From: a virus
Virus record (IMG/VR): IMGVR_UViG_3300027773_000012
Span: 1 to 44,052 of that record
Length of the DNA: 44,052 nucleotides
Reading direction: 5' to 3' (one strand)
The stretch's first letter is position 1. Every line of letters starts with the position of its first letter. Below are positions 8,686-39,826 of the stretch, piece after piece. Made by a program: the position numbers and the translations under genes. The notes under the pieces were generated by a model that worked only from the letters and a program-made list of their open reading frames with translations, searched no databases and was not told the DNA's origin.

Positions 8686-9106
8686 CAGCGGCCTCGATCC
8701 CGGCGAGCACCCCGAGCTCACCCATCCCGTGTAGCCCGGCCAGATCCGTCACCATCATCGCGACGTGATGCGCATAGTCCGAGAACCGCGTCGAGTCCAG
8801 CACCATCACGATGCTGCCCTCCCCGATCCAGCCCGGCCGCTTGACGTTCTTGGCCCACTCGGAACACTCGTCGTACTGCTTGAACAGGGTCCAGCCGAGC
8901 GCGGTCAGGAACGCACGTATCCGCGCCGGGCTGTGGTGTTCGCGGCTGATGAACGGTTCCAGCGAGCGGGGCATGACGCGCAGCCTGCGCGCGGCCTCGG
9001 CTTCGTTGCAGAGCGCCTCGAGAACGGGTGCCAGTTCGGCTGCGAGGCCGCCCTCGTCAGCGGCGGCGGTCTTAGCCAGGGCGCGTGCCTGGGTCAGGTC
9101 GATCAT
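8678..9106 (-). CDS. Hypothetical protein, 142 aa
   Basis: ATG 9106 overlaps the preceding stop (ATGA). N-terminal helix DLTQARALAKTAAADEGGLA, then a region RSLEPFISREHHSPARIRAFLTALGWTLF with features of a winged-helix or small helical fold, then EGSIVMVLDSTRFSDYAHHV. The C-terminus is hydrophobic-helical. No known family. Confidence 0.6.
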   Translation of the reverse strand: MIDLTQARALAKTAAADEGGLAAELAPVLEALCNEAEAARRLRVMPRSLEPFISREHHSPARIRAFLTALGWTLFKQYDECSEWAKNVKRPGWIGEGSIVMVLDSTRFSDYAHHVAMMVTDLAGLHGMGELGVLAGIEAADA

Positions 9107-9495
9107 GACGGGTGCTCCTCGTCGCTCAGGGATTCGATCTGCTCCAGCAATCGCCGGCGCCCGTTGGCCCACCCGTTCGCGTATGCCTCGGTCGGGCTGG
9201 CCATGAGTAGAGTCACGGGGCCGCGCGCCAGCACGTCCTCCCAGTGAGGGTGCAGCGGCACCTCGTTCGGGCCCGGGCGGGGCGCGGGCCCGCGGTCTGT
9301 GAGCTTCTCCAACTCGCTGCGCGGATCGACCCACGCCTTCGGGCGGCCGAACTCGCCGCCGAGTGGATACCAATTCCCGATGTTCGCGCCCGAACGAACC
9401 CAGATCTCCTGCCGCCGATAGTCGCCCCAGTGTACGGCGACGATCGCGCCGGACTCCTGCGGCTCGTCCTCGCAGCCGACTGCTTCGGCGGTCAC
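9103..9495 (-). CDS. Hypothetical protein, 130 aa
   Basis: GTG 9495 overlaps the stop of the 41-residue gene (GTGA). A beta-rich N-terminal half (GAIVAVHWGDYRRQEIWVR then GNWYPLGGEFG) precedes a linker and a helical C-terminus (EAYANGWANGRRRLLEQIES). The pattern resembles a small phage protein with a beta-barrel start, but no family is assigned. Confidence 0.6.
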   Translation of the reverse strand: MTAEAVGCEDEPQESGAIVAVHWGDYRRQEIWVRSGANIGNWYPLGGEFGRPKAWVDPRSELEKLTDRGPAPRPGPNEVPLHPHWEDVLARGPVTLLMASPTEAYANGWANGRRRLLEQIESLSDEEHPS

Positions 9496-9617
9496 GTCAG
9501 AATCTCTTTCAGGTCGTCTCGGGTGATGTGCTGCCGCTGGTCGACGGCCCTTTGCCACGCCGCGCGCACTGCGGGCAGCAGCCCGAAGGCCACCGACTCC
9601 AGGCACCCGGCCGGCAT
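9492..9617 (-). CDS. Small hypothetical protein, 41 aa
   Basis: ATG 9617 to a TGA that overlaps the next GTG. The reading MPAGCLESVAFGLLPAVRAA then a helix ITRDDLKEIL has high third-position GC, and the coupled stop/start supports translation. It is in the same frame as the gene ending at 9654, separated by that gene's TGA and 36 bases. No ribosome site is obvious, so translation may depend on coupling. Too short to assign. Confidence 0.45.
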   Translation of the reverse strand: MPAGCLESVAFGLLPAVRAAWQRAVDQRQHITRDDLKEILT

Positions 9618-9653
9618 GTCCGCGTCGGCCGCGATCCGCCGCTCGGCATGCGC

Positions 9654-10052
9654 TCAGTTGATCGGCCACTCGGACTCGATGACCGAGGCGAGCGTCCCGT
9701 CCGGCGACCACAGAAGCCAGCCGCGCGAGAACTGCCCGGTCACCGCCGTCAGCATCGCGAGCACGTCCTCGGCCCGATCCGCGACCTGCTGGCAGAACTC
9801 CTCACCCAGCAGCAGGATCCGCGGCCCATCGCCGTAGGGAATCGTGCGGCGTCCGAGTTCCATCGGGTAGCCGCCACTGTCCCCGTAGGCGACGATCCGC
9901 AGCGCGTCCTCGCAGGGCGCGAGCGCCACGGTGAGCGGTGTGGCGGGAGCGCCGGGTTCTACGAGCACGAACGGTTCGTCGGGGCAGCATTCGATCAGCG
10001 CCGTGCACACGCAGCGGGCGATCTCGTTGCCACGGATCTCGATGACGGCCAT
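9654..10052 (-). CDS. Hypothetical protein, 132 aa
   Basis: ATG 10052 overlaps the upstream stop (ATGA); GTG 10055 is in frame. Acidic with three N-terminal cysteines (ARCVCTALIECCPDEP), then PLTVALAPCEDALRIVAYGD and a long helix EEFCQQVADRAEDVLAMLTA, ending GWLLWSPDGTLASV. Two-layer alpha/beta is likely. No family recognised. Confidence 0.6.
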   Translation of the reverse strand: MAVIEIRGNEIARCVCTALIECCPDEPFVLVEPGAPATPLTVALAPCEDALRIVAYGDSGGYPMELGRRTIPYGDGPRILLLGEEFCQQVADRAEDVLAMLTAVTGQFSRGWLLWSPDGTLASVIESEWPIN

Positions 10053-10571: not shown

Positions 10572-10874
10572 TCAGTGGGTAGCGGGGTCGAACTCGACCA
10601 CGAGCGGGGCGAGGCGACGCGCCACCTGCTGCACCCCGGCATCGGCCAGCGCGTCCAGCACCGCGGACAGGACCGCGTCGTACAGGCCGGGTGGCACCTC
10701 GCACGTGACGCCCTCGCCGTGGCAGCGCGCGCACGGCCGGGACGCGTACGGCTCCAGGACACGGGCCTGCGTGCGGTGGCCGTTGCAGCTGCGGCAGGTC
10801 GCGATCTGGATCTCGTTCTGCAGGTCCACGATCGCGCTGGCGAGGTCCACGACGCTCGGAGTTGTCTCGGCCAT
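10572..10874 (-). CDS. DnaJ-type zinc-finger protein, 100 aa
   Basis: ATG 10874 overlaps the stop of the STAS gene (ATGA). After an N-terminal helix (SVVDLASAIVDLQNEIQIA) come two knuckles, CRSCNGHR and CARCHGEG, spaced like one zinc site of the DnaJ cysteine-rich domain. The C-terminal half is a helical segment (LYDAVLSAVLDALADAG). There is no J-domain. Likely a small zinc protein; partner unknown. 59 non-coding bases follow before the next gene. Confidence 0.65.
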   Translation of the reverse strand: MAETTPSVVDLASAIVDLQNEIQIATCRSCNGHRTQARVLEPYASRPCARCHGEGVTCEVPPGLYDAVLSAVLDALADAGVQQVARRLAPLVVEFDPATH

Positions 10875-11482
10875 CACGCGATCAGTTCGCTCGCGTGCAT
10901 CGCCGTGACCACCGCGCCGTCACGCCACACCAGCCGCAGCGGACCGAACGAGTCGTAAGCGCGCTCGGCGGCCATACCGTCGCCACCGACGTAGAGGTGT
11001 CCGCCAGCGCCACAAACCAGCGGCTGCGGGATCGACTTCTCGAGGTTGCCGAGCCACACGTCGCCGACCTGCGGCGGCCAGAACGTCGACCTCGGGTCAG
11101 GCTCGGGTGGCGTAGGCTCGGCGCCCTTCGGCGCGAGCAGCTCCAGCGCGCCCTCCACGGTCTCGGCGTGCGGGATCGCCTTATGCACGCCCGTGACCCG
11201 CAGCGATTTCCCGGGGCGGCTGTCGAGGTCTACGAGGAGGGCCAGCCGGCCGCCGTGCGCTACCGCGCGCTTGGCTGCGCCGACGATCACGCCGAGGCCC
11301 GTCGAGTCGAGCAGGTCCACGCCGCGCAGGTCGATCACCTGCCGGTATCGGGCCTCGTTGATCAGGCCGATCAGCTTGCTGCGCAGTTCGGGCGCGGCGT
11401 ACACGTCACACTGCCCGATGACGGTGACCACGGCGGTGCCCGGTTCGGGCCGGTCGATGGTGATTGTGACGTCGGCGGCCAT
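10874..11482 (-). CDS. STAS-domain anti-sigma factor antagonist with C-terminal extension
   Basis: 202 residues from ATG 11482. Residues about 3-118 are a STAS domain of the SpoIIAA/RsbV/BldG class: VVTVIGQCDVYAAPELRSKL, then DLRGVDLLDSTGLGVIVGA, where Ser60 in DSTGLG is the expected phosphorylation site, then a helix and LLVDLDSRPGKSLRVTGV. In this family the unphosphorylated form binds an anti-sigma kinase and frees a sigma factor. Residues about 125-202 (PQVGDVWLGN...AVVTAMHASELIA) are an additional small domain not in classical members. A PP2C phosphatase is encoded just upstream, with one small gene between; no anti-sigma kinase is visible, so host partners are implied. Confidence 0.85.
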   Translation of the reverse strand: MAADVTITIDRPEPGTAVVTVIGQCDVYAAPELRSKLIGLINEARYRQVIDLRGVDLLDSTGLGVIVGAAKRAVAHGGRLALLVDLDSRPGKSLRVTGVHKAIPHAETVEGALELLAPKGAEPTPPEPDPRSTFWPPQVGDVWLGNLEKSIPQPLVCGAGGHLYVGGDGMAAERAYDSFGPLRLVWRDGAVVTAMHASELIA

Positions 11483-11483
11483 C

Positions 11484-11756
11484 TCAGGCTCCTTCGATTT
11501 CAGTCTTGTTGGCGAGCTCGGCACGGCCCGCGTCGGTGATCGCTGCGTACACGACCAGGCCGCGCGCCTCGCCCTCCACGACCAGGCCGCCCGCAATCAG
11601 GGCACGCATCTGCGGCGTCACGAGGGCGCGGTAGCCGCGTCGGCCGGGCGCGGACCACTTCGAGATCGGGTCGTTGTAGCGGTAGACCTCGCCGCAGGCG
11701 ACGCCGGACAGGACCTCGCGGCGAGATAGGGGCGCCTGCGGCGGATTCACGGCCAC
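11484..11756 (-). CDS. Winged-helix-like hypothetical, 90 aa
   Basis: GTG 11756 (GTG 11750 also in frame), two bases after the PP2C stop. The sequence LSRREVLSGVACGEVYRYND ... TPQMRALIAGGLVVEGEARG ... YAAITDAGRAEL has the helix-helix-strand-strand order and the ITDAGRxEL end typical of MarR/PadR-like winged helices. It sits between PP2C and STAS genes, so it may regulate or take part in that module. Family not confirmed. Confidence 0.55.
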   Translation of the reverse strand: MAVNPPQAPLSRREVLSGVACGEVYRYNDPISKWSAPGRRGYRALVTPQMRALIAGGLVVEGEARGLVVYAAITDAGRAELANKTEIEGA

Positions 11757-11758
11757 GG

Positions 11759-12535
11759 TCAGGCTCCGTTCGGGGTCAGGTCGATCACGAGGGCGGTCGC
11801 GTTGTCCGCCTTCTCGCCCGCAGCCCGGGCGGCACGCACCGCGCGGAAGGTCAGCCGCCGGGCGCAGGTCGAGGCGTCCGACGTGTTCGCTAACGTGCTG
11901 CGGATGTCCTCGTCCGTGAGCGGCCCGCACACCCCGTCCGTGCACAACAGGACCCGCGCGAACGTGTTGAACGGCGAGCCGGGCAACGGCTGCGCGACCT
12001 GCGGGGTGTGCGGGACGCAGTTGCCCAACGCGCTGCCGTGCCGGTGATCCAGCGGCCCGAGCAGGCAGCGCGTGAGCTGCCACGGCAGGCCCCACTGGCC
12101 GAGGTTGTGATCCTCCGTCAACTGGTGCAGCGCCCCGTCAGCGGTGAGCGCGTAGGCGCGGGAGTCCCCGATCCACGCGACCCACAGCGATGCGGCGTTG
12201 AAGTAGGCGAGCACGAGTGTCGTGTTGTCGTTCGGGCCGCGCCGCAAGTGGCGCTGGTCGATGATTTCGCGGGCGGCGTCGACCGCCCGGTCGAGGTGCT
12301 CGGCGCCGTAGGTGGACGCGATGCTGACCGCGAGCCTCACGGCGTCGCGCGAGATGCGCCCGGACCCGGCGCCCGATCCGCAGCCGTCAGCTATCGCGGC
12401 GACGATCGCGGGCAGGCCCGTGTCCGGGTCGATGGTGCGCGTCCAGTCGCAGGCGTCTTGCTGGTAGGCGCGGTCGCCCTTCAGGGTGCGGTTCTCGACG
12501 GGCGCGAAGGTCAGATCGCGAACGGTCGTGGTCAT
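11759..12535 (-). CDS. PP2C-family Ser/Thr protein phosphatase
   Basis: 258 residues from ATG 12535. PP2C motifs appear in order: DRAYQQDA (21-28), AIADGCGSGAGSGR with D50-G51, AWIGDSRAYAL with G123-D124, LLCTDGV with D200-G201, and DNATALV with D244-N245. These acidic residues are the standard metal ligands, so the enzyme should be active. No membrane segment or sensor domain, unlike RsbU/SpoIIE, so it is a stand-alone catalytic domain. Position next to a STAS gene suggests it removes the phosphate from the STAS serine, or acts on host kinase targets. Confidence 0.9.
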   Translation of the reverse strand: MTTTVRDLTFAPVENRTLKGDRAYQQDACDWTRTIDPDTGLPAIVAAIADGCGSGAGSGRISRDAVRLAVSIASTYGAEHLDRAVDAAREIIDQRHLRRGPNDNTTLVLAYFNAASLWVAWIGDSRAYALTADGALHQLTEDHNLGQWGLPWQLTRCLLGPLDHRHGSALGNCVPHTPQVAQPLPGSPFNTFARVLLCTDGVCGPLTDEDIRSTLANTSDASTCARRLTFRAVRAARAAGEKADNATALVIDLTPNGA

Positions 12536-13961: not shown

Positions 13962-14068
13962 CGTCCCGTCCCCTTCGCCGCGGCCAGCAGCAACCACGCC
14001 CACATCCCGACCCCGACACCACCACACACACCCAGCACCAGTCGGCCAGCCACATACACGCCGCTCAC
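13958..14068 (-). CDS. Tiny membrane protein, 36 aa
   Basis: GTG 14068 overlaps the LuxR-type gene's stop (GTGA) and its own stop overlaps the next GTG the same way. The protein is a single glycine/valine-rich hydrophobic helix (LVLGVCGGVGVGMWAWLLLA) ending KGTGR. The double coupling and frame fit are the evidence; its shortness keeps confidence moderate. Confidence 0.45.
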   Translation of the reverse strand: MSGVYVAGRLVLGVCGGVGVGMWAWLLLAAAKGTGR

Positions 14069-14577
14069 GGCGCACCCACCCACTCCCCTGGCGGCGCGAC
14101 CCGTTCCACGGTCTGCGGCGGTGTCGCCTCACCAACCGCCCCAGCCGCCACCGCGGCCCAGCGACCACCCAGCGCCGCCAACGCCTCCGCGCCGAACCGC
14201 GTCGCAGCCCTCACCTGACCCGACGTCAGCGCCAGCGCACACGCCTCCAGCAACTCCAAGGCGTCCGCCGGGACAGCGACCGCCCCGACACCCGGCCGCA
14301 TCCGCGTCCGGCCCGGATGCCCCTCCTTCACCTTCGCCGCGCCCCGCACCGGAGTCGGCAGAACATGCCGCCGATGCGCCAGCGACACCGCGTGAGGCGC
14401 GTTCTCCGCGCCGAGCTTCACGAAGATCCGCCGCAGATGGGTTTTCACCGTCGTCGGCTCGATCCCGAGGCGTCTCGCGGCTTCCTCGTTCGTCATGCCG
14501 GCCGCGACGAACGCGAGCACGTCGACTTCACGGCGGGTAAGCGGGTCACCGAACTGCGCTGCGGCGCCGAAGCTCAT
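14065..14577 (-). CDS. LuxR-type HTH protein without receiver, 170 aa
   Basis: ATG 14577 overlaps the stop of a second HTH gene (ATGA). Residues 13-65 are a canonical LuxR/NarL DNA-binding domain: LTRREVDVLAFVAAGMTNEE, then AARRLGIEPTTVKTHLRRIF and VKLGAEN. No receiver or sensor domain precedes it. The C-terminal 100 residues include a helical segment (ADALELLEACALALTSGQVR) and a Pro-rich tail. Likely a transcription factor whose output is set by expression or by a partner protein. Confidence 0.8.
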   Translation of the reverse strand: MSFGAAAQFGDPLTRREVDVLAFVAAGMTNEEAARRLGIEPTTVKTHLRRIFVKLGAENAPHAVSLAHRRHVLPTPVRGAAKVKEGHPGRTRMRPGVGAVAVPADALELLEACALALTSGQVRAATRFGAEALAALGGRWAAVAAGAVGEATPPQTVERVAPPGEWVGAP

Positions 14578-14984
14578 CGTGGCTCTCCGATCATGGGCAG
14601 GATCCCGATCTCGTGCGCGGTCCGGATCGCCTGCACGCGGTTGTGCGCGCCGAGCAGCCGGTACAGCCGCGCGATGCGGGAGCCGGCCGCGGCGGGGCTG
14701 ATGCCGAGCTGTGCGGCGATCTGGTCGCGGTGCAGACCCTGGGCGAGCAGCGGCAGGAGCCGGGCGAGGTGCGCGGGGACGTCGGCGGCGTGCGGTGGGA
14801 TGGTGATGCCGAACGCGTCCGCGAGGGTTTCGGCGTTGAGGCGTAGGGGTGCGCCGGGCCGGGATGATGCCCTGGGGGCGCACAGCGCGTCGCTGAGCGC
14901 GTTCAGGACGGCTTTGCGGCTCCGGGTAGGGGCGGGGCGTGTTCGGGCCGCAGCGTGGCGCTGTGGGGCTGTGCGGGCGTTCAC
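14574..14984 (-). CDS. Second LuxR-like HTH protein, 136 aa
   Basis: GTG 14984 overlaps the methyltransferase stop (GTGA). An Ala/Arg-rich N-terminus and helical region precede residues about 76-125 (LLPLLAQGLHRDQIAAQLGI, then AAGSRIARLYRLLGAHNRVQ), which follow the LuxR HTH pattern (xxGxxxxxIAxxLGxSxxAxxxxIxRLxRxLGAxNR). It and the next gene may be a duplicated pair that diverged. No sensor domain. Confidence 0.7.
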   Translation of the reverse strand: MNARTAPQRHAAARTRPAPTRSRKAVLNALSDALCAPRASSRPGAPLRLNAETLADAFGITIPPHAADVPAHLARLLPLLAQGLHRDQIAAQLGISPAAAGSRIARLYRLLGAHNRVQAIRTAHEIGILPMIGEPR

Positions 14985-15742
14985 GCGACACCACCGAGAT
15001 CCAGGACGCCCTGCGACAGGCGCTGCGCAGCGGCGCGCGCGTAAGGGTGGAACCGTTCGATACCGATCGCGCGACGACCGGTCAGACGGGCAGCCTCCAG
15101 GGTCGAGCCGGACCCGGCCATCGGATCGAGCACGACGCCCCCCGCCGGGCAGCCGTACTCGATCAGTCGCTGCAGGATCGGCAGCGGTTTCTCGGTCGGG
15201 TGGATCGCGACGCCGCGTAGGTTCTTCGCGAACATCACGCTGGTGACCATCCGCGTCCCGTCGTCCACCCACGTGTTGCGGCGCAGACCCCCGTAGTGCG
15301 GCACCCTGTTCGCGCCGCCGCGCACGGCGCCCTGGTCCGGCCCGTCGTTCGGCTGACGCGGCGCTTCATGGTGGATCTGCGCCCATGGGCCGCGGTACCA
15401 GTGCAGGGCATGCTCGTGAACGCGCCGGAACCGGTCGGCCTGGAAGCCTGTGCCGTTGTTCTTCTGCCAGATCACGTCCTGCGAGAGCTGCCAGCCCGCA
15501 GCGGTGAACTCGTCGCGGCGTTCCAGGAACATGCGCATCGAGCCGAAGCACCACATGGAGCGCGTGACCTTCGCGATCTCGGTAGGCCAGCCGTCGGGCC
15601 ACTGGTCCCATTCGAGGGATGTCTCGGCGTAGGGCGGGTCGCAGACGGCGAGGTCGAGGTGCTGGTCAGCGAGCAGCGGCAGCACGTCCTCGAATCGGGC
15701 GTGGTAGAGGGTTACCTGGCCGTCGTCGAACAGGGGCTTCAT
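14981..15742 (-). CDS. DNA methyltransferase, beta-class amino MTase
   Basis: 253 residues from ATG 15742, overlapping the D12 methyltransferase stop (ATGA). Motif IV DPPY is at 35-38 (LAVCDPPYAETSLEW); motif I comes late (VVLDPMAGSGSTLEAARLTG) with HPTEKPLPILQRLIEYG before it. This IV-to-I order defines beta-class N6-adenine/N4-cytosine enzymes. The target-recognition region lies between. No restriction gene is nearby, so it probably protects phage DNA or alters regulation. Target site cannot be read from sequence. Confidence 0.9.
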   Translation of the reverse strand: MKPLFDDGQVTLYHARFEDVLPLLADQHLDLAVCDPPYAETSLEWDQWPDGWPTEIAKVTRSMWCFGSMRMFLERRDEFTAAGWQLSQDVIWQKNNGTGFQADRFRRVHEHALHWYRGPWAQIHHEAPRQPNDGPDQGAVRGGANRVPHYGGLRRNTWVDDGTRMVTSVMFAKNLRGVAIHPTEKPLPILQRLIEYGCPAGGVVLDPMAGSGSTLEAARLTGRRAIGIERFHPYARAAAQRLSQGVLDLGGVA

Positions 15743-16563
15743 GCGGCACCTGCTTCGAAATCGAGCACGCCCTGCGCGCCGAGCGGACGGTTGGACCACA
15801 GCACTTCGACGCGTGCCTGCTCGCCCGACCGGCCGTTACCGGTGGACGCGGCGGTCTGCTCGCGGTACCAGCCGTCGTACAGCTCGTCGTAGAGCGGCGA
15901 GGGGTATCCGGACAGGACGACCGCAGCCGCGCAGTCCCACAGCGCTTCGGCCAGCGCGCGATGGTCTGCCTCGTCGCGCATCTCGTGCTCGTACCGGTTG
16001 GAGTGGGTGCGCAGGTCGCCCGGGTAGGGCGGGTCAACGTACAGCAGGCAGCCGGGACGGGAGCCGTAGGCCGCGATCACTTCGAGTGCGGGCCGGCATT
16101 CGAGCGAGACGCGCATGAGGCGTTCGGCGCCGGCGGCGAGGCGGGAGCGGTAGCCGTCGAGGTAGGCCGGCATGGAGGTGCATGAGGTGGGTTCGACGTA
16201 GTGCCGCCAGCCGGTTTTGCGGGGGCTTCCGCCGCGGGATTGGGTCAGGCGCACCCAGACGCGACGGGCGAGTTCGAGTTCGTCATCTGTGTCCTGCCAT
16301 GCGGCGTCGAACTCGGCTCGGGAGTGTGGGGTGAGCACGGCCGCGCGGATCAGCTCGTCGGGGCGGTCGCGCAGGATCCGCCAGAAGGTCACCAGTTTGC
16401 GGTCAAGGTCGTTGACGGTCTCCATGCGAGACGGCGGTTTGGCCATCAGCACCGTGAGCGAGCCGCAGTACGGCTCGACGTAGTGCTCATGCGGGGGCAG
16501 CAGGGAGACGATCCATGGCGCGATGGTCTGCTTGCTGCCGAAGTACGGGATCGGGGGCCTCAT
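15739..16563 (-). CDS. Dam-like D12-class N6-adenine methyltransferase
   Basis: 274 residues from ATG 16563, overlapping the WhiB stop (ATGA). The Dam-family layout is clear: PIPYFGSKQTIAPWIVSLLP (5-24), motif I YVEPYCGSLTVLMAKP (28-43), NDLDRKLVTFWRILRDRP, and motif IV LLYVDPPYPGDLRT with DPPY at 177-180. Length is normal. Second of two adjacent orphan methyltransferases of different classes. Confidence 0.9.
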   Translation of the reverse strand: MRPPIPYFGSKQTIAPWIVSLLPPHEHYVEPYCGSLTVLMAKPPSRMETVNDLDRKLVTFWRILRDRPDELIRAAVLTPHSRAEFDAAWQDTDDELELARRVWVRLTQSRGGSPRKTGWRHYVEPTSCTSMPAYLDGYRSRLAAGAERLMRVSLECRPALEVIAAYGSRPGCLLYVDPPYPGDLRTHSNRYEHEMRDEADHRALAEALWDCAAAVVLSGYPSPLYDELYDGWYREQTAASTGNGRSGEQARVEVLWSNRPLGAQGVLDFEAGAA

Positions 16564-25213: not shown

Positions 25214-25473
25214 GAGGCACGCCCCGACCTAGCTGTGATCGCCTCAGCGAGGCACCGCGGGCACAGTGGATTGCCGCCCGGGCCGTACTTGCGGCACCGC
25301 GCCGTGCAGCTTGAGCAGGGTCCGAACGCGGTGGCGGACCACACCGCGCGCGGGTTCTCGTAGCTCGGGAACTCCTGGCTGGAGTAGTTGACGCGGACGG
25401 CTGGACGCCAACCGAACGAGACCGGCGCCTCATCCACGGCCGCCGCGGGCACCTCGATCGTCGGGGCGCTCAC
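25210..25473 (-). CDS. Small zinc-finger protein, 87 aa
   Basis: GTG 25473 overlaps the DUF5131 stop (GTGA); its stop overlaps the RusA start. An unstructured N-terminus precedes FGPCSSCTARCRKYGPGGNP and LCPRCLAE, a four-cysteine zinc knuckle. Possibly a nucleic-acid-binding accessory of the recombination genes. Family unknown. Confidence 0.6.
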   Translation of the reverse strand: MSAPTIEVPAAAVDEAPVSFGWRPAVRVNYSSQEFPSYENPRAVWSATAFGPCSSCTARCRKYGPGGNPLCPRCLAEAITARSGRAS

Positions 25474-26381
25474 GCTGGCACCCCCAGCGAGCCTGCGGCA
25501 GACGAGACGAGCTCGCCCTCAACCACCCGCGGATACTGCCGAACACGCAGATCCAACGGCCACTCAGACGGCTCGCCGCCCTTCGGATCCACCGACCGAT
25601 GCACCCGAGCCCACGGCGTTCCGAGCTGCTTGACATACACCGGAACCCCGGCATCACGGCACTGCGACACCAGCGACCGCGCCCAGTCGAGATCCATCGC
25701 CCGCGGCGCGGAACCGACACCCGACTCACCGCCCACAACGACCCAGTCCAACCGCGGGTTATCCCCAAGCCAGCGGTCCGCCAGCCGCACCGCCGAAAGC
25801 AACGGCTCCGCCGAGATCCACCGCACATGCGCCGGCGTCGACAAGAGCGCCTCAATCCGCAGCGTCGCGTGCGGCTGGTCCTCCGTGCTGACACCGAGCC
25901 ACACGTTGCGCAGCGGCCACCAGCCGTCACCGTGCTCGGCGTCGAACATGGCGAGCGACGTACCTGTCTGCGCGACGTAGGCGGACCGGACGGCGGCCTG
26001 GAACCGGGGCGAGGACAGCAGGGCGCGCATGCGCCCGTGCCGCTTGGTGAGGATCTGATACGAATGCTGCGGGGTGCGCAGCATTACCGCGAACGCCCGC
26101 GCCACGAGATCCACGGGCACCTGCTTGTGGAACAAGTCCGAGAGGCTGTTCACGAACACGCGCCGCGGCTTGCGCCACGTGGTGGGCAGCTCGAGCTTGT
26201 GCGGCATCAGGATGATGCGCGTGGAGCCGCCGATCGCCTTGGAGTCGAAGAAGTTGCGCTGCTGCCTGAACGGCGGCTGCTTGTCGATGTAGCAATTGAC
26301 GCAGCCTTCCGAGACGCGTGTACACCCGTGGACGAAGTTCCACGACGCATCCGTCCATTGAATAAGACTGTTGTCGCTCAT
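25470..26381 (-). CDS. DUF5131 / phage Gp37-Gp68 family, radical-SAM-like
   Basis: 303 residues from ATG 26381, overlapping the previous stop (ATGA). Opens with IQWTDASWNFVHGCTRVSEG; the C-x6-C-x2-C set (C20, C27, C30) is the family's iron-sulfur motif. Later blocks are VFVNSLSDLFHKQVP, YQILTKRHGRM, VWLGVSTEDQ, RWISAEPLL and VVVGGESG, all family hallmarks. Members are common in mycobacteriophages and other phages; a radical-SAM-type reaction is assumed but the substrate is unknown. Confidence 0.9.
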   Translation of the reverse strand: MSDNSLIQWTDASWNFVHGCTRVSEGCVNCYIDKQPPFRQQRNFFDSKAIGGSTRIILMPHKLELPTTWRKPRRVFVNSLSDLFHKQVPVDLVARAFAVMLRTPQHSYQILTKRHGRMRALLSSPRFQAAVRSAYVAQTGTSLAMFDAEHGDGWWPLRNVWLGVSTEDQPHATLRIEALLSTPAHVRWISAEPLLSAVRLADRWLGDNPRLDWVVVGGESGVGSAPRAMDLDWARSLVSQCRDAGVPVYVKQLGTPWARVHRSVDPKGGEPSEWPLDLRVRQYPRVVEGELVSSAAGSLGVPA

Positions 26382-26664
26382 GTCGGCTGTCCCCCACGGA
26401 AAGCGAAATCTGAAAACGGCGCGCACTCGGCGGCCGGCGTCGGGACGTGCTCGCGCACCCGCGCCAGGCAGCCGACGCCGAAGTTCTCGAACTCCAGCAG
26501 CCGCGCGTCCGGATCCGCGCGAGCTGCGCACGCGTGGTGATGTCCTCGCGCGCGAGGACGTTGCGGGCCTGGTGGCCGAGCCGGTCGTGCCCGAGCAGGT
26601 CGTCCAGTTCGGTCGGGTACTCGCGGCAGGACAGGTCGCGACACTCACCGCGCTGGGGGCTCAC
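26378..26664 (-). pseudogene. RNA polymerase alpha-CTD-like HhH protein split by a -1 frameshift
   Basis: Start GTG 26664 overlaps the previous stop (GTGA) and the end at 26378 overlaps the next ATG, so one gene slot fits exactly, but its length of 287 bases is not divisible by three. The first frame reads ECRDLSCREYPTELDDLLGH and RNVLAREDITTRAQLARIRT; the matching second half (ARLLEFENFGVGCLARVREH) is in the -1 frame. Joined, they match the alpha-CTD helix-hairpin-helix pattern (ITTxxxLARI...LLEFENFGxxxLxxVRE). The shift lies near 26501-26520 in a GC-rich CGCGCGG context. Sequencing error, mutation, or programmed shift are all possible. Confidence 0.55.
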
Positions 26665-33143: not shown

Positions 33144-33902
33144 ATGGACACGGGAGACAGCGGTCGAACCAACGCCGTATCCCACACCGCATGCAAAGCG
33201 CTGATTACCCCCAAAGCCACCCTGATCGCCACCGCGATCCTCTGGCCCGCCGCCGTGCTGCTCTTCGCCCTCCACCTCGACCACGCGCTCAGCCTCGGGC
33301 TGCTCGGCATCGGCCTGTGGTGCTTCTGGCTCCTCGCCCTCGGCTGCGTCGGGTTCTGGACCACGTTCCTGCGCGTGACCAGTCCCCTGCTCGCCGAGGA
33401 CTGGCGCATCGGCGTCGCGTTCGGGGACCTCAACCACCTGCCCGTGACCGAATCCACCTACGAGGCGCTGCTGGCCGACGACAAACCCCCCAACCCGTTC
33501 GTGCGCGGGGCGCTGTGGCCGATCTTCACGTGGATCGGCGGCATGTGCTGGGGGATCGCCGCGCTGCTGACCGGCGCCGCGGCGAGCGGGCTCATCCACG
33601 CCCCCACCACCGACATCCTCGTCGCGCTCGTGATCATCATGATTCCCGCCGTGCAGTGCACCGCCGCCGCCGTCAACGGGCCGCCGCTGACCCGCCAGTG
33701 GCAGCTGCGCAACGCCGCGGCGCTCGCGCACCTGCGCATGCGCGCGATGGCGCAGCAGGTCGCCGACGCCCGCGCGCTGAACACCTCCGTGCCGGACACG
33801 ATGGCGGACACGGCGGAGATCCCCGGAGCCACCCTGCACGTGGTGCACGGCAGCGGCGTCAACGGCCGCTCGCACAGCTGGCACACGGCCGGCGAATCCT
33901 AG
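33144..33902 (+). CDS. Multi-pass membrane protein, 252 aa, exclusion candidate
   Basis: ATG 33144 preceded by AAAGGGGGAATAC, a strong ribosome site. Four hydrophobic segments: ATLIATAILWPAAVLLFAL, LSLGLLGIGLWCFWLLALG, WIGGMCWGIAALLTGAAA, and DILVALVIIMIPAVQCTAAA, with a 50-residue loop between the second and third and a 75-residue C-terminal soluble tail. Position between repressor and integrase is where superinfection-exclusion or lysogenic-conversion genes sit. No family match. Its stop overlaps the integrase stop. Confidence 0.65.
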   Translation: MDTGDSGRTNAVSHTACKALITPKATLIATAILWPAAVLLFALHLDHALSLGLLGIGLWCFWLLALGCVGFWTTFLRVTSPLLAEDWRIGVAFGDLNHLPVTESTYEALLADDKPPNPFVRGALWPIFTWIGGMCWGIAALLTGAAASGLIHAPTTDILVALVIIMIPAVQCTAAAVNGPPLTRQWQLRNAAALAHLRMRAMAQQVADARALNTSVPDTMADTAEIPGATLHVVHGSGVNGRSHSWHTAGES

Positions 33903-35329
33903 GCCGCCGCGGCGAACCCCACCCGGGACAGGCGCGCATCCAGCGCCACCGTCATGTCGTCCTCCACCTCGGGCAGCAGGTGCCCGTACCGGTCGTAGGT
34001 GATCTGGATCGACTTGTGCCCCAGCCGGCGGGAGATCGCGAACAGCTGCACGCCGATCGCGATGAGTACCGCGACGTGGGAGTGCCGCAGGTCGTGCACG
34101 CGCGGTTTGCGTTCCAGGGTGCCCTCGTGCCCGCACCACTGGATTTCGACGTCGCGCAGCGTGGACGGGCCGCGGCGCCCGATCCCGGCCGCGTAGTCCT
34201 CGCCCCGGCACGCCACGCACCGCATCGCCCGGTACAACGCCGGCCTCCAGCGCCCGGTGTAGAAGGTGGAGTGCGTCCAGCGGCCGCCGGCCGGGCCGGT
34301 GAACACCAGGTCCGTCGGACGCTTGCCCTCTAGGCGTGGCCGGATCATCTCCACCTGACGGCGGGTCAGGGCGATCCAGCGCACCGACGCCTTGGTTTTC
34401 GGCGCGCCGAGGTAGTAGCTCTTCTTCTCGGTGTTGTTCTTCGCGTGCTTGACCACCGACTGCTTCCACGCGCGGCGCACCCGCACCCGCGGCCGGGGGC
34501 CTTCCAGCTCGAAGTCCCGCACCTGGTGCGCCGTGGCCTCGCTGAAGCGCTCCCCCGTGCCGTAGAGCCACTCGGTCAGGTCCGCCGCCTCGGCGTCGTC
34601 GAACCAGCCGTGCAGGATGGCGAACTCCTCCGGGTCCAGGAACATCATCTCCTCGTCGTCCTCGCCGTCGTCCAGTGACGGCAGCGAAGTGTCGGCGCAC
34701 GGGTTGCGGGAGCGTTTGGGCACCTCCGCGTCGACGAGGAACTGCATGATCGCGTACAGCAGGCCGTGGATGTTGCGGACGGTTTTCGCCGAGACCGGTT
34801 CGCGCGCCCACGGCCAGTCCTCCTCCGGCACGTCCGGGTCGCCGGGATCCTCGCGCTCGCCCTCGAGCAGCCCGCTGATCCACGGGCCGATGCTCTCGGG
34901 GCTGATCTGCTCCGGATCCAGCACGTTCATCTCCCCGAACTTCGGCTCGAGGTGGTTGCGCACGATCGCGTGATACCGGGCGAGGGTGCCGGATTCGATC
35001 CCGGGGGCCATGCGCGCGAGCGCCGCCTTGGCGTGGTCGCGAAAGAGCAGCACCGGTTTATCGTCGGCGCCCTGGGCGGCGTCGATCGCGGCGGCCTGCG
35101 CGGCGGTGACGAACCCGATACCGGGCAGGTAGTTGACGGGCCAGTCGTAGCCGTTGGATTCGACGGCGAGGGCGAAGAACTGCGCGGCCTTCAGGTCGCG
35201 CTTGGGGTTCTTCTTCGGGTTGAACGTCTCGGTCTTCTGCGGACCCTTGGAGCCGCCACGCAGGCGCCATTTGACGTCCCACACGGTGGTGCCGTCGGCC
35301 AGGGAGCGGGGTTTCGGTGTGAGCGCCAT
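33899..35329 (-). CDS. int: Tyrosine site-specific integrase
   Basis: 476 residues from ATG 35329 (GTG 35338 adds three). An N-terminal arm-binding part and a core-binding helical part (to about 215) precede the catalytic domain. Counting from GTG 35338: R264 (GTGERFSEATAHQV), a lysine in GAPKTKASVRW, H415-R418 (HDLRHSH), H441 (RRLGHKSIQIT) and nucleophile Y451 (YDRYGH). A Cys-containing insertion (CVACRGEDY ... WCGHEG) lies between, as in several actinophage integrases. Convergent with the membrane protein and next to attP. Confidence 0.9.
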   Translation of the reverse strand: MALTPKPRSLADGTTVWDVKWRLRGGSKGPQKTETFNPKKNPKRDLKAAQFFALAVESNGYDWPVNYLPGIGFVTAAQAAAIDAAQGADDKPVLLFRDHAKAALARMAPGIESGTLARYHAIVRNHLEPKFGEMNVLDPEQISPESIGPWISGLLEGEREDPGDPDVPEEDWPWAREPVSAKTVRNIHGLLYAIMQFLVDAEVPKRSRNPCADTSLPSLDDGEDDEEMMFLDPEEFAILHGWFDDAEAADLTEWLYGTGERFSEATAHQVRDFELEGPRPRVRVRRAWKQSVVKHAKNNTEKKSYYLGAPKTKASVRWIALTRRQVEMIRPRLEGKRPTDLVFTGPAGGRWTHSTFYTGRWRPALYRAMRCVACRGEDYAAGIGRRGPSTLRDVEIQWCGHEGTLERKPRVHDLRHSHVAVLIAIGVQLFAISRRLGHKSIQITYDRYGHLLPEVEDDMTVALDARLSRVGFAAAA

Positions 35330-35391
35330 GCGTTCCACGCTGCCCGCGAAACCGGGGCCCGGCCAGGGTTTTTGCCCAGTTGTGATGTAGA

Positions 35392-35542
35392 ACCTGCTGT
35401 AGGGTTCTTTACCCCTCGCGGACCCGTACTATATCCGCTGGTAGTGGCTATCAATGTCTGGTGTCCGAGGGGGGACTTGAACCCCGCTTGCACAGCAGGT
35501 CAGCAGGTAGACGGCTCGCGCGAATGGCGACTAAAGGCGACT
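35392..35542. repeat. Probable integrase arm-type sites around attP
   Basis: CAGCAGGT occurs in tandem at 35493-35500 and 35501-35508, with an inverted copy ACCTGCTG at 35392-35399, on the two sides of the attP core. GGCGACT is repeated at 35526-35532 and 35536-35542, one helical turn apart. Such repeats flanking a core are typical of arm binding by tyrosine integrases or by an excisionase. Confidence 0.5.
35459..35485 (-). other. attP core identical in type to a tRNA 3' end
   Basis: Read leftward it is the T-arm and acceptor end of a tRNA: GGGGTTCAAGTCCCC, then CCTCGGACACCA, complete with CCA. The bases upstream do not form an anticodon arm, so only the 3' part is present, as expected for an attP that restores a host tRNA on integration. 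Acceptor strand CTCGGAC with discriminator A fits a tRNA-Leu. Located 130 bases from the integrase start. Confidence 0.7.
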
Positions 35543-35659
35543 GGCGGCGAGTTTTGACCGCTGCGTGCTCCAAAATACAGCAGCCGCCCGGCCCCGCACA
35601 GGGGCGGCAGGGCTCTGATCATGAGTGAATGACACTATTCACCGTGTCATCCTTTGCGT
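35486..35659. promoter_or_regulatory. Region before the terminase genes
   Basis: Holds arm-type repeats, GCCGCC/GGCGGC arms near 35583-35609, and ATGACAC (35629-35635) with GTGTCAT (35644-35650), a 7-base inverted repeat eight bases apart just before the small terminase start. The last could be a late-promoter operator or a terminase binding site. No gene is supported here. Confidence 0.45.
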
Positions 35660-38191: not shown

Positions 38192-39826
38192 ATGGCGCTC
38201 GCGTGGCCACCCACCCAGGCAGGGGCCGACCCGACCCGGTTCGTCGACGACCTCGACGAAGGCCTCAAAGCCATGGCGCACGCCGACCGCGCCTACCGCA
38301 AAGCCCAGGTCTACTACGAGGGCTCCTTCCCCGAGGTGTTCGCCTCCCCCCGCCTGCGCGCCGCGCTCGCCCGCACCGGCGTGGACTTCCGCCTGAACTT
38401 CGCCAAGACGCCCGTGGACGCGGTGGTCTCCCGCCTGAAGATCAACGCCATCACCTCGCCCCTGGACGGCGTGCAGGACACGATCGCGCAGATCTGGAAA
38501 GACAACCAGCTCGACCTGTTCGAGATCCTCTCCTTCCGGCGGGCCTGCGAGTTCGGGGACTCCTACCTGCTGGTGTGGCCCGACGCGAACATCCCCTCAG
38601 GGGTGCGGGTGTACCTGAACAACCCGCGCGTGATGCGGATCCTGTACGACGCCGAGAACGAGATCGAGAAACGCTTCGCGATCAAAATGTGGAAGGACGG
38701 CAACGCCCACAAGGCGTTCCTGTACTACGCGGACCGCATCGAGAAGTACATCACCGCCGACGGCAAGGACGGCTCGCAACGCGACGACTGGGGCGAATAC
38801 AGCGACCCGGAGGACGACGGCTGGCCGTTGGACAACCCCTTCGGCGAAGTACCGGTCTTCCATCTGCGCACCGATTTCCAGTATGGCGTCCCGGAGCACT
38901 CCGGGGCGTACGGGCCGCAGAACCTCGTGCACAAGCTGGTGATGGGACACGCCGCAGGCATCGACTACCACGCGCTGCCGCAGCGCTGGGCGCTGACCGA
39001 GACCGGCACGAACGCCAATGACTTCGCGGTGGGCGACGAGGACGAATACGCCTACTCGCTCGATACCGGAGCTACCGGCAACGCCGATGACGGGCGGGCG
39101 CAACTGCGCTCCGAACCCGGGTCGGTGTGGTTCCTGGAGAACATCAAGGCACTGGGTGAGTTCGGGACCGGTGACCCGTCGGTGTTCATCGCGCCGATGG
39201 AGTTCTACGTGCGCGCCATGGCGCAGATCACCACCACCCCGATCCACTACTTCGACACCATCGGGCAGACCCCGTCCGGTGAATCGCTGCGCACCATGGA
39301 AGCGCCGTTCGTGGAGAAGGTCGAAAACCGGCAGCTGCTGTTCGGCGGGGCGTGGCGCGACGCGATGGATTTCGCGCTCAAATGCCTCGGGGTCGATCAG
39401 GCGCAGATCGACGTGCACTGGAACCCGTGCTCGTCCGTGTCCGACATGCAGGCGTGGCAGACCGCGAAGATGAAGAACGACCTCGGTGTGCCGGCCAAGC
39501 AGCTGCTGTTGGAGGCCGGGTACAGCGAGGAGCAGGTCGACGCGTGGCTGGCCGAGGGCGCTCAGTCCCTCGCGCAGCAGATCGAGACCCTCAACGCGCT
39601 CGGCCTCGCGGCGCAGGGCCTGGCGGTCGCGGTTCAGCTAGGCGTGGTGGACGAGGCCGGGGTCAAGGCGCTGCTCGCGCACATGCTGCCGCAGATGCTC
39701 GGCATGGGCCCGGACGGCGAGCCGATGCCGCTCGGGTCGGCGGGCAAGGTCCCGGCGCTGACCGGGTCCGGCAGCATCGAAGACACGCAGGGCGTGGAGA
39801 CCGCCGGTGACGGCGGCGATCAGTGA
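38192..39826 (+). CDS. Portal protein
   Basis: 544 residues from ATG 38192, with AGGGAGG eight bases upstream; a GTG at 38174 is inside that ribosome site and is rejected. Family-type blocks: VVSRLKINAITSPLDGVQDT, FEILSFRRACEFGDSYLLVW, NPRVMRILYDAENEIEKRFA, NLVHKLVMGHAAGIDYHALP and TPIHYFDTIGQTPSGESLRT. The last (near residue 365) is the conserved portal segment. Twelve copies would form the head vertex channel. Ends with an overlap into the MuF gene. Confidence 0.85.
   Translation: MALAWPPTQAGADPTRFVDDLDEGLKAMAHADRAYRKAQVYYEGSFPEVFASPRLRAALARTGVDFRLNFAKTPVDAVVSRLKINAITSPLDGVQDTIAQIWKDNQLDLFEILSFRRACEFGDSYLLVWPDANIPSGVRVYLNNPRVMRILYDAENEIEKRFAIKMWKDGNAHKAFLYYADRIEKYITADGKDGSQRDDWGEYSDPEDDGWPLDNPFGEVPVFHLRTDFQYGVPEHSGAYGPQNLVHKLVMGHAAGIDYHALPQRWALTETGTNANDFAVGDEDEYAYSLDTGATGNADDGRAQLRSEPGSVWFLENIKALGEFGTGDPSVFIAPMEFYVRAMAQITTTPIHYFDTIGQTPSGESLRTMEAPFVEKVENRQLLFGGAWRDAMDFALKCLGVDQAQIDVHWNPCSSVSDMQAWQTAKMKNDLGVPAKQLLLEAGYSEEQVDAWLAEGAQSLAQQIETLNALGLAAQGLAVAVQLGVVDEAGVKALLAHMLPQMLGMGPDGEPMPLGSAGKVPALTGSGSIEDTQGVETAGDGGDQ

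Follow-up and report, generated by a model that had tools for sequence, protein, structure and literature searches.

Partner switches of the BldG/RsbV/SpoIIAA kind govern development and stress in actinobacteria, and in hosts the STAS and kinase genes are often neighbours, an arrangement that is usual and not obligatory. Phages redirect their hosts via sigma factors or anti-sigma proteins of their own, and actinophages via WhiB-like proteins. According to PMC10117723, WhiB-like proteins, SsgA and other developmental regulators are found in actinophages, and in Streptomyces development contains phage infection. Outside sigma control, the CapK/CapS system (PMC13373217) is, by our comparison, the closest functional analogue of the phage proteins described here. 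No described case of a phage-borne anti-anti-sigma protein was found in the part of the literature that was covered. If STAS1 is such a protein, the phage would act one level higher, by freeing sigma factors that the host already restrains.

The genes in question lie in a viral DNA of 44,052 nucleotides (the window, meaning the whole stretch that was analysed) and in the larger record IMGVR_UViG_3300005532_000007 (G001), to which the window is near-identical end to end. The features are listed below; G002 and L082 denote relatives.

10572..10877, minus strand: small CxxC protein, the next gene, its start overlapping the stop codon of STAS1 (sequence; context)
10874..11482, minus strand: STAS1, anti-sigma-factor-antagonist type, 202 aa, ATG at 11482 (PF01740; TIGR00377; RsbV PDB match; L082 relative)
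10877..11107, minus strand: STAS1 C-terminal extension, residues 126-202, no recognised domain (PHROGs and phage-record searches)
11153..11440, minus strand: STAS domain of STAS1, residues 15-110 (TIGR00377)
11291..11308, minus strand: DSTGLG phosphosite motif, residues 59-64, S60 being the expected phosphoserine (sequence)
11484..11756, minus strand: conserved small gene of 90 aa between PP2C and STAS1 (67% identical in G002)
11759..12535, minus strand: PP2C-type Ser/Thr phosphatase, 258 aa, of the PstP/Stp1/PppA class (PF13672; PDB profile matches; G002 homologue)
33899..35338, minus strand: tyrosine integrase, context for a temperate phage (PHROG integrase, 1.1e-43; matches actinophage integrases)
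35456..35575, no strand: 120-bp repeat found at both ends of G001, showing circle closure (sequence comparison)
G001 39159-39611, outside the window: HATPase_c_2 protein, candidate kinase of RsbW type (Pfam, 42.6 bits against a cut-off of 27.4)
G001 45147-45908 (L010:9147-9908), plus strand, outside the window: STAS2, a further STAS protein whose phosphosite is degenerate, FAGTAAG (sequence)

STAS1 resembles BldG, RsbV and SpoIIAA in its STAS domain, its DSTGLG phosphosite and its 42-43% identity to a BldG-like STAS protein of Nonomuraea, in which the motif is identical. It differs from them in being phage-encoded, in its C-terminal extension of about 77 aa and in having no adjoining kinase gene and no sigma factor in the genome. 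Like the GHKL kinases RsbW and SpoIIAB, the phage HATPase scores above the Pfam HATPase_c_2 threshold, and in the alignment both the SELxTNA N-box and the HGRGL motif (G2 box) are present; unlike in the RsbW/SpoIIAB pairs, it lies about 24 kb from its possible partner STAS1, and it scores below the NCBIfam RsbA cut-off. The phage PP2C shares with PstP, Stp1 and PppA the PP2C_2 family, the four metal-binding Asp residues and its best PDB profile matches, whereas it falls below the cut-off of the NCBIfam Stp1 equivalog (NF033484, 63.9 bits against 230) and the phage genome holds no Hanks kinase. As in CapK/CapS, a GHKL kinase-type protein and a STAS protein with a phosphoserine site are both present, but CapK is an HTH-STAS-GHKL protein and CapS a STAS-wHTH protein, while the phage domains are not fused in that way and their genes are distant. 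STAS1 can also be set beside the WhiB-like proteins and SsgA as a host-type regulatory protein carried by an actinophage, although the actinophage regulators named in the consulted passages of PMC10117723 do not include a STAS protein working at the sigma level.

Genome, operon and host

G001 is 88,172 bp long and begins and ends with an identical stretch of 120 bp, so the genome is circular or circularly permuted with a length of 88,052 bp. The window is half of this genome and spans its end-to-end junction. The gene set, which includes an integrase, a RecE-like exonuclease, a terminase, a portal and a capsid, marks the genome by its content as that of a temperate tailed phage. The terminase has its nearest counterparts in Streptomyces phages (44% over 81% of its length); the host is probably an actinobacterium, and we regard the phage as a temperate virus, presumably of soil actinobacteria. 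A whole-genome scan with the PP2C pair for host or synteny returned only distant PP2Cs, mostly betaproteobacterial (22-38%), and was uninformative. Family profile searches of G001 detected no Pkinase (Hanks kinase) family and no Sigma70_r2 (PF04542), so any sigma target would belong to the host. The SpoIIE family (PF07228) was absent from G001 and from 14 other contigs.

PP2C, the 90-aa gene and STAS1 sit in a long, closely packed minus-strand operon in which start and stop codons overlap between neighbours, as read from the sequence. This overlap bears out the single operon of the original prediction, but as weak evidence, since the string of genes runs on in both directions. The promoter scan and the Rfam scan gave no match, and the terminator scan gave two terminator-like sites against 3.5 expected. 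The small protein at 10572..10877 has only a weak match to a DnaJ zinc domain, below the cut-off. Elsewhere in the window, 14065-14994 encodes a LuxR/GerE-type DNA-binding protein; the PHROG family that it matches best carries the annotation sigma factor. Two adjacent DNA methyltransferases follow at 14981-15799 and 15739-16563, one of them with a match (7e-65) to an orphan methyltransferase of PADLOC, and a DUF5131 protein (8.5e-71), with a homologue in L082 too, is encoded at 25470-26648.

STAS1, PP2C and the candidate kinase

STAS1 matches Pfam STAS (PF01740) with an E value of 2.5e-12 (46.9 bits against a cut-off of 22.6) and exceeds the cut-off of the NCBIfam family ant_ant_sig (TIGR00377, 61.4 bits against 53.45). 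Its best PDB sequence match is RsbV of B. subtilis (4.6e-10). The STAS protein with a DSTGLG motif that the original prediction described is therefore confirmed, but not its length of 240 aa: that reading frame extends back into the preceding gene, and because the latter ends at 11484 the start is most likely the ATG at 11482. The C-terminal extension gave no match in PHROGs or phage records, and no wHTH match. The AF2 models of STAS1 were poor (pLDDT 46 alone, 47 with a four-row alignment) and were taken for coarse topology only. At this low confidence, strands and helices alternate in the four-row model, S60 sits where a helix begins, as it would in STAS domains, and the C-terminal extension consists mostly of beta strands. 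The best Foldseek matches to the model were mostly STAS antagonists, none of them below E 0.001. The Nonomuraea STAS gene is followed by a small ATPase gene, an order that we take to be the bldG-apgA arrangement. In a small tree, STAS1 and the L082 STAS protein group together (0.96), near the BldG-like group at a weak node (0.61). Phage records queried with STAS1, PP2C and HATPase yielded nothing better than weak matches, to records without annotation; these include the 'phage' STAS matches from Listeria and Staphylococcus.

The PP2C matches Pfam PP2C_2 (PF13672) with an E value of 1.8e-11 (44.5 bits against a cut-off of 24). The metal-binding residues D27, D50, D200 and D244 are present, and D27, D50-G51, D200-G201 and D244-N245 are conserved in the 73%-identical homologue of G002. 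The active-site pairs from which an intact PP2C had been proposed thus stand, with D27 in addition. A profile built from the PP2C and six relatives matched PppA at 4e-27, PstP at 1e-24 and a SpoIIE-family chain at 3e-10 in the PDB; judged from these profiles, the phage PP2C is of the PstP/Stp1/PppA class and not of the SpoIIE/RsbU class.

The 90-aa gene has its G002 counterpart directly after the G002 PP2C (dN 0.25/dS 0.47) and no family match in Pfam, PHROGs or NCBIfam. The gene placed here by the original prediction is real, as its conservation in G002 indicates, while the winged helix ascribed to it finds no support in these collections.

The phage HATPase, which in Pfam matches the GHKL domain and no other, is the nearest HATPase_c_2 gene to STAS1 and is surrounded by genes for a GntR/UTRA regulator, a NUDIX protein and a DUF2637 protein. 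The claim that no anti-sigma kinase is present holds within the 44-kb window and fails for the whole genome, where this candidate is found.

Occurrence of the genes in relatives

G002 (99 kb, possibly incomplete) carries both the PP2C and the 90-aa gene and gave no STAS or HATPase_c_2 match. The PP2C has a dN of 0.21 and a dS of 0.59 between the two phages. The STAS protein of L082 shares 56% identity with STAS1 and has the same LLDSTGLGVIVG site and a different C-terminal extension. A homologue of the window gene 9103-9711 lies next to its gene, and no PP2C match was found within about 6 kb of that gene, in a stretch of 12.3 kb. Between STAS1 and this protein the STAS domain is only weakly constrained (dN 0.38/dS 0.58). 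The closest portal relative, G004, is without STAS, PP2C and HATPase_c_2. Stand-alone PP2C homologues recur among hypothetical genes on Nocardia plasmids (L049, L050, L052 and L053), one of them about 2.5 kb from the antirestriction gene ardA, and none has an annotated STAS neighbour. From these distributions, STAS1 and PP2C appear to be separately inherited among the relatives. A database check for the same STAS and PP2C pair, as had been suggested, went against it, G002 having PP2C and no STAS, and L082 having STAS and no PP2C nearby.

The HATPase scan gave 11 other viral contigs with HATPase_c_2, three of which also have STAS (G006, G007 and G008); PP2C_2 was found in none of the 11. G007 and G008 are relatives of one another, and in both (L075 and L074) the STAS gene has genes for a GntR-type regulator and integrase-like proteins as neighbours. 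In their STAS proteins Glu takes the place of the phosphoserine (DETG), perhaps as a mimic of the permanently phosphorylated state. Among five further phage STAS proteins, that of L082 alone keeps the DSTG site, the remainder being G006 with DTEG, G007 and G008 with Glu, and the degenerate STAS2. The joint occurrence of HATPase and STAS across viral contigs is suggestive of a wider pattern, as a count for which there is no baseline rate. In G005, a homologue of the C-terminal half of STAS2 comes after a HATPase gene; it was rejected as a HATPase-STAS neighbour pair, since by eye the match covers that half and not the STAS domain.

Possible roles of STAS1 and PP2C

The best explanation, which we hold tentatively and at a little less than an even chance, is that STAS1 is an anti-anti-sigma protein like BldG and RsbV that acts on GHKL kinases and biases sigma use, with the PP2C as a separate accessory phosphatase. 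The intact phosphosite of STAS1 and its conservation in a second phage make an effect on GHKL anti-sigma kinases the natural reading. We infer the binding and phosphorylation of STAS1, the regulatory steps and the timing of expression as follows. Unphosphorylated STAS1 would bind GHKL anti-sigma kinases and free the sigma factors held by them, and phosphorylation of S60 would turn it off. Its targets would most likely be BldG-partner-type kinases of the host, the phage HATPase being the second candidate. Made from the minus-strand operon, STAS1 may bias host sigma use during infection or lysogeny, probably in stress or developmental programmes. The PP2C would most likely reverse host Ser/Thr phosphorylation and would not be a dedicated STAS1 phosphatase. 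We counted in favour of this reading of STAS1 the TIGR00377 and RsbV matches, the Nonomuraea identity, the site in L082, the tree, the HATPase_c_2 genes of G001 and of the 11 other viral contigs, three of these with STAS, the absence of Sigma70_r2 and the carriage of developmental regulators by other actinophages, and against it the lack of an adjoining HATPase gene and a C-terminal extension that has no assigned role and differs between the two phages. STAS1 could instead act, like CapS (PMC13373217), on a target outside sigma control. Of the originally proposed switch of host sigma use, the anti-anti-sigma-type STAS protein is upheld by the phosphosite and its conservation in L082, and the cognate phosphatase is not.

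That the PP2C dephosphorylates STAS1 or host BldG-like proteins, so that the antagonist stays active and the sigma factor free, is quite unlikely. Both proteins are intact and encoded two genes apart in one operon, and SpoIIE/RsbU-type PPM phosphatases do act on STAS proteins (PMC11418112). However, the original assignment of the PP2C to that type as a STAS partner gives way to its PstP/Stp1/PppA class, the absence of PF07228 and the separate inheritance: G002 has the PP2C without any STAS, L082 has STAS without a PP2C nearby, and the plasmid homologues are likewise without an annotated STAS neighbour. Moreover, SpoIIE and RsbU prefer one STAS substrate over another 400- to 4000-fold (PMC11418112), a specificity such that action of the PP2C on STAS1 is not to be assumed. 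For the PP2C, a counter-kinase role would be as likely as partnership with STAS1 or likelier. In such a counter-defence, for which the chances are appreciable yet well short of even, the PP2C would strip off the phosphates that a host anti-phage Ser/Thr kinase adds, and STAS1 would be unrelated. The PstP/Stp1 type, purifying selection in two phages and the Nocardia-plasmid homologues among accessory genes, one of them near ardA, are consistent with this role, as is a PADLOC candidate-family match, but that match is weak (9.8e-05) and the plasmid context loose. As it concerns the PP2C only, counter-defence is compatible with the anti-anti-sigma reading of STAS1.

A switch internal to the phage and resembling CapK/CapS, in which the HATPase phosphorylates STAS1 or STAS2 and thereby acts on a phage regulator or promoter, for instance in lysogeny and with no sigma involved, is unlikely, if less so than the STAS1-PP2C partnership. 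HATPase and STAS genes occur together in G001, G006, G007 and G008, the regulator and integrase-like neighbours in G007 and G008 fit such a role, and GHKL and STAS proteins can control transcription directly, as in CapK/CapS (PMC13373217). Against this, STAS1 has no recognised DNA-binding domain and lies 24 kb from the kinase, the DSTG site is kept in L082 alone among the other phage proteins, and just three of the 11 HATPase contigs have STAS, two of them related, in a count with no baseline. It is very unlikely that a temperate actinophage here carries a complete partner switch, made up of a GHKL kinase, a BldG-like antagonist and a PP2C, that controls host sigma factors without a sigma factor of the phage's own. 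The least probable reading is that the genes are recently acquired, host-derived passengers without phage function. STAS1 and PP2C are gained or lost between relatives, and G004 lacks all three families, but the reading frames and active residues are intact, starts and stops are coupled, and dN is below dS in the PP2C, in the 90-aa gene and, to a weaker degree, in STAS1.
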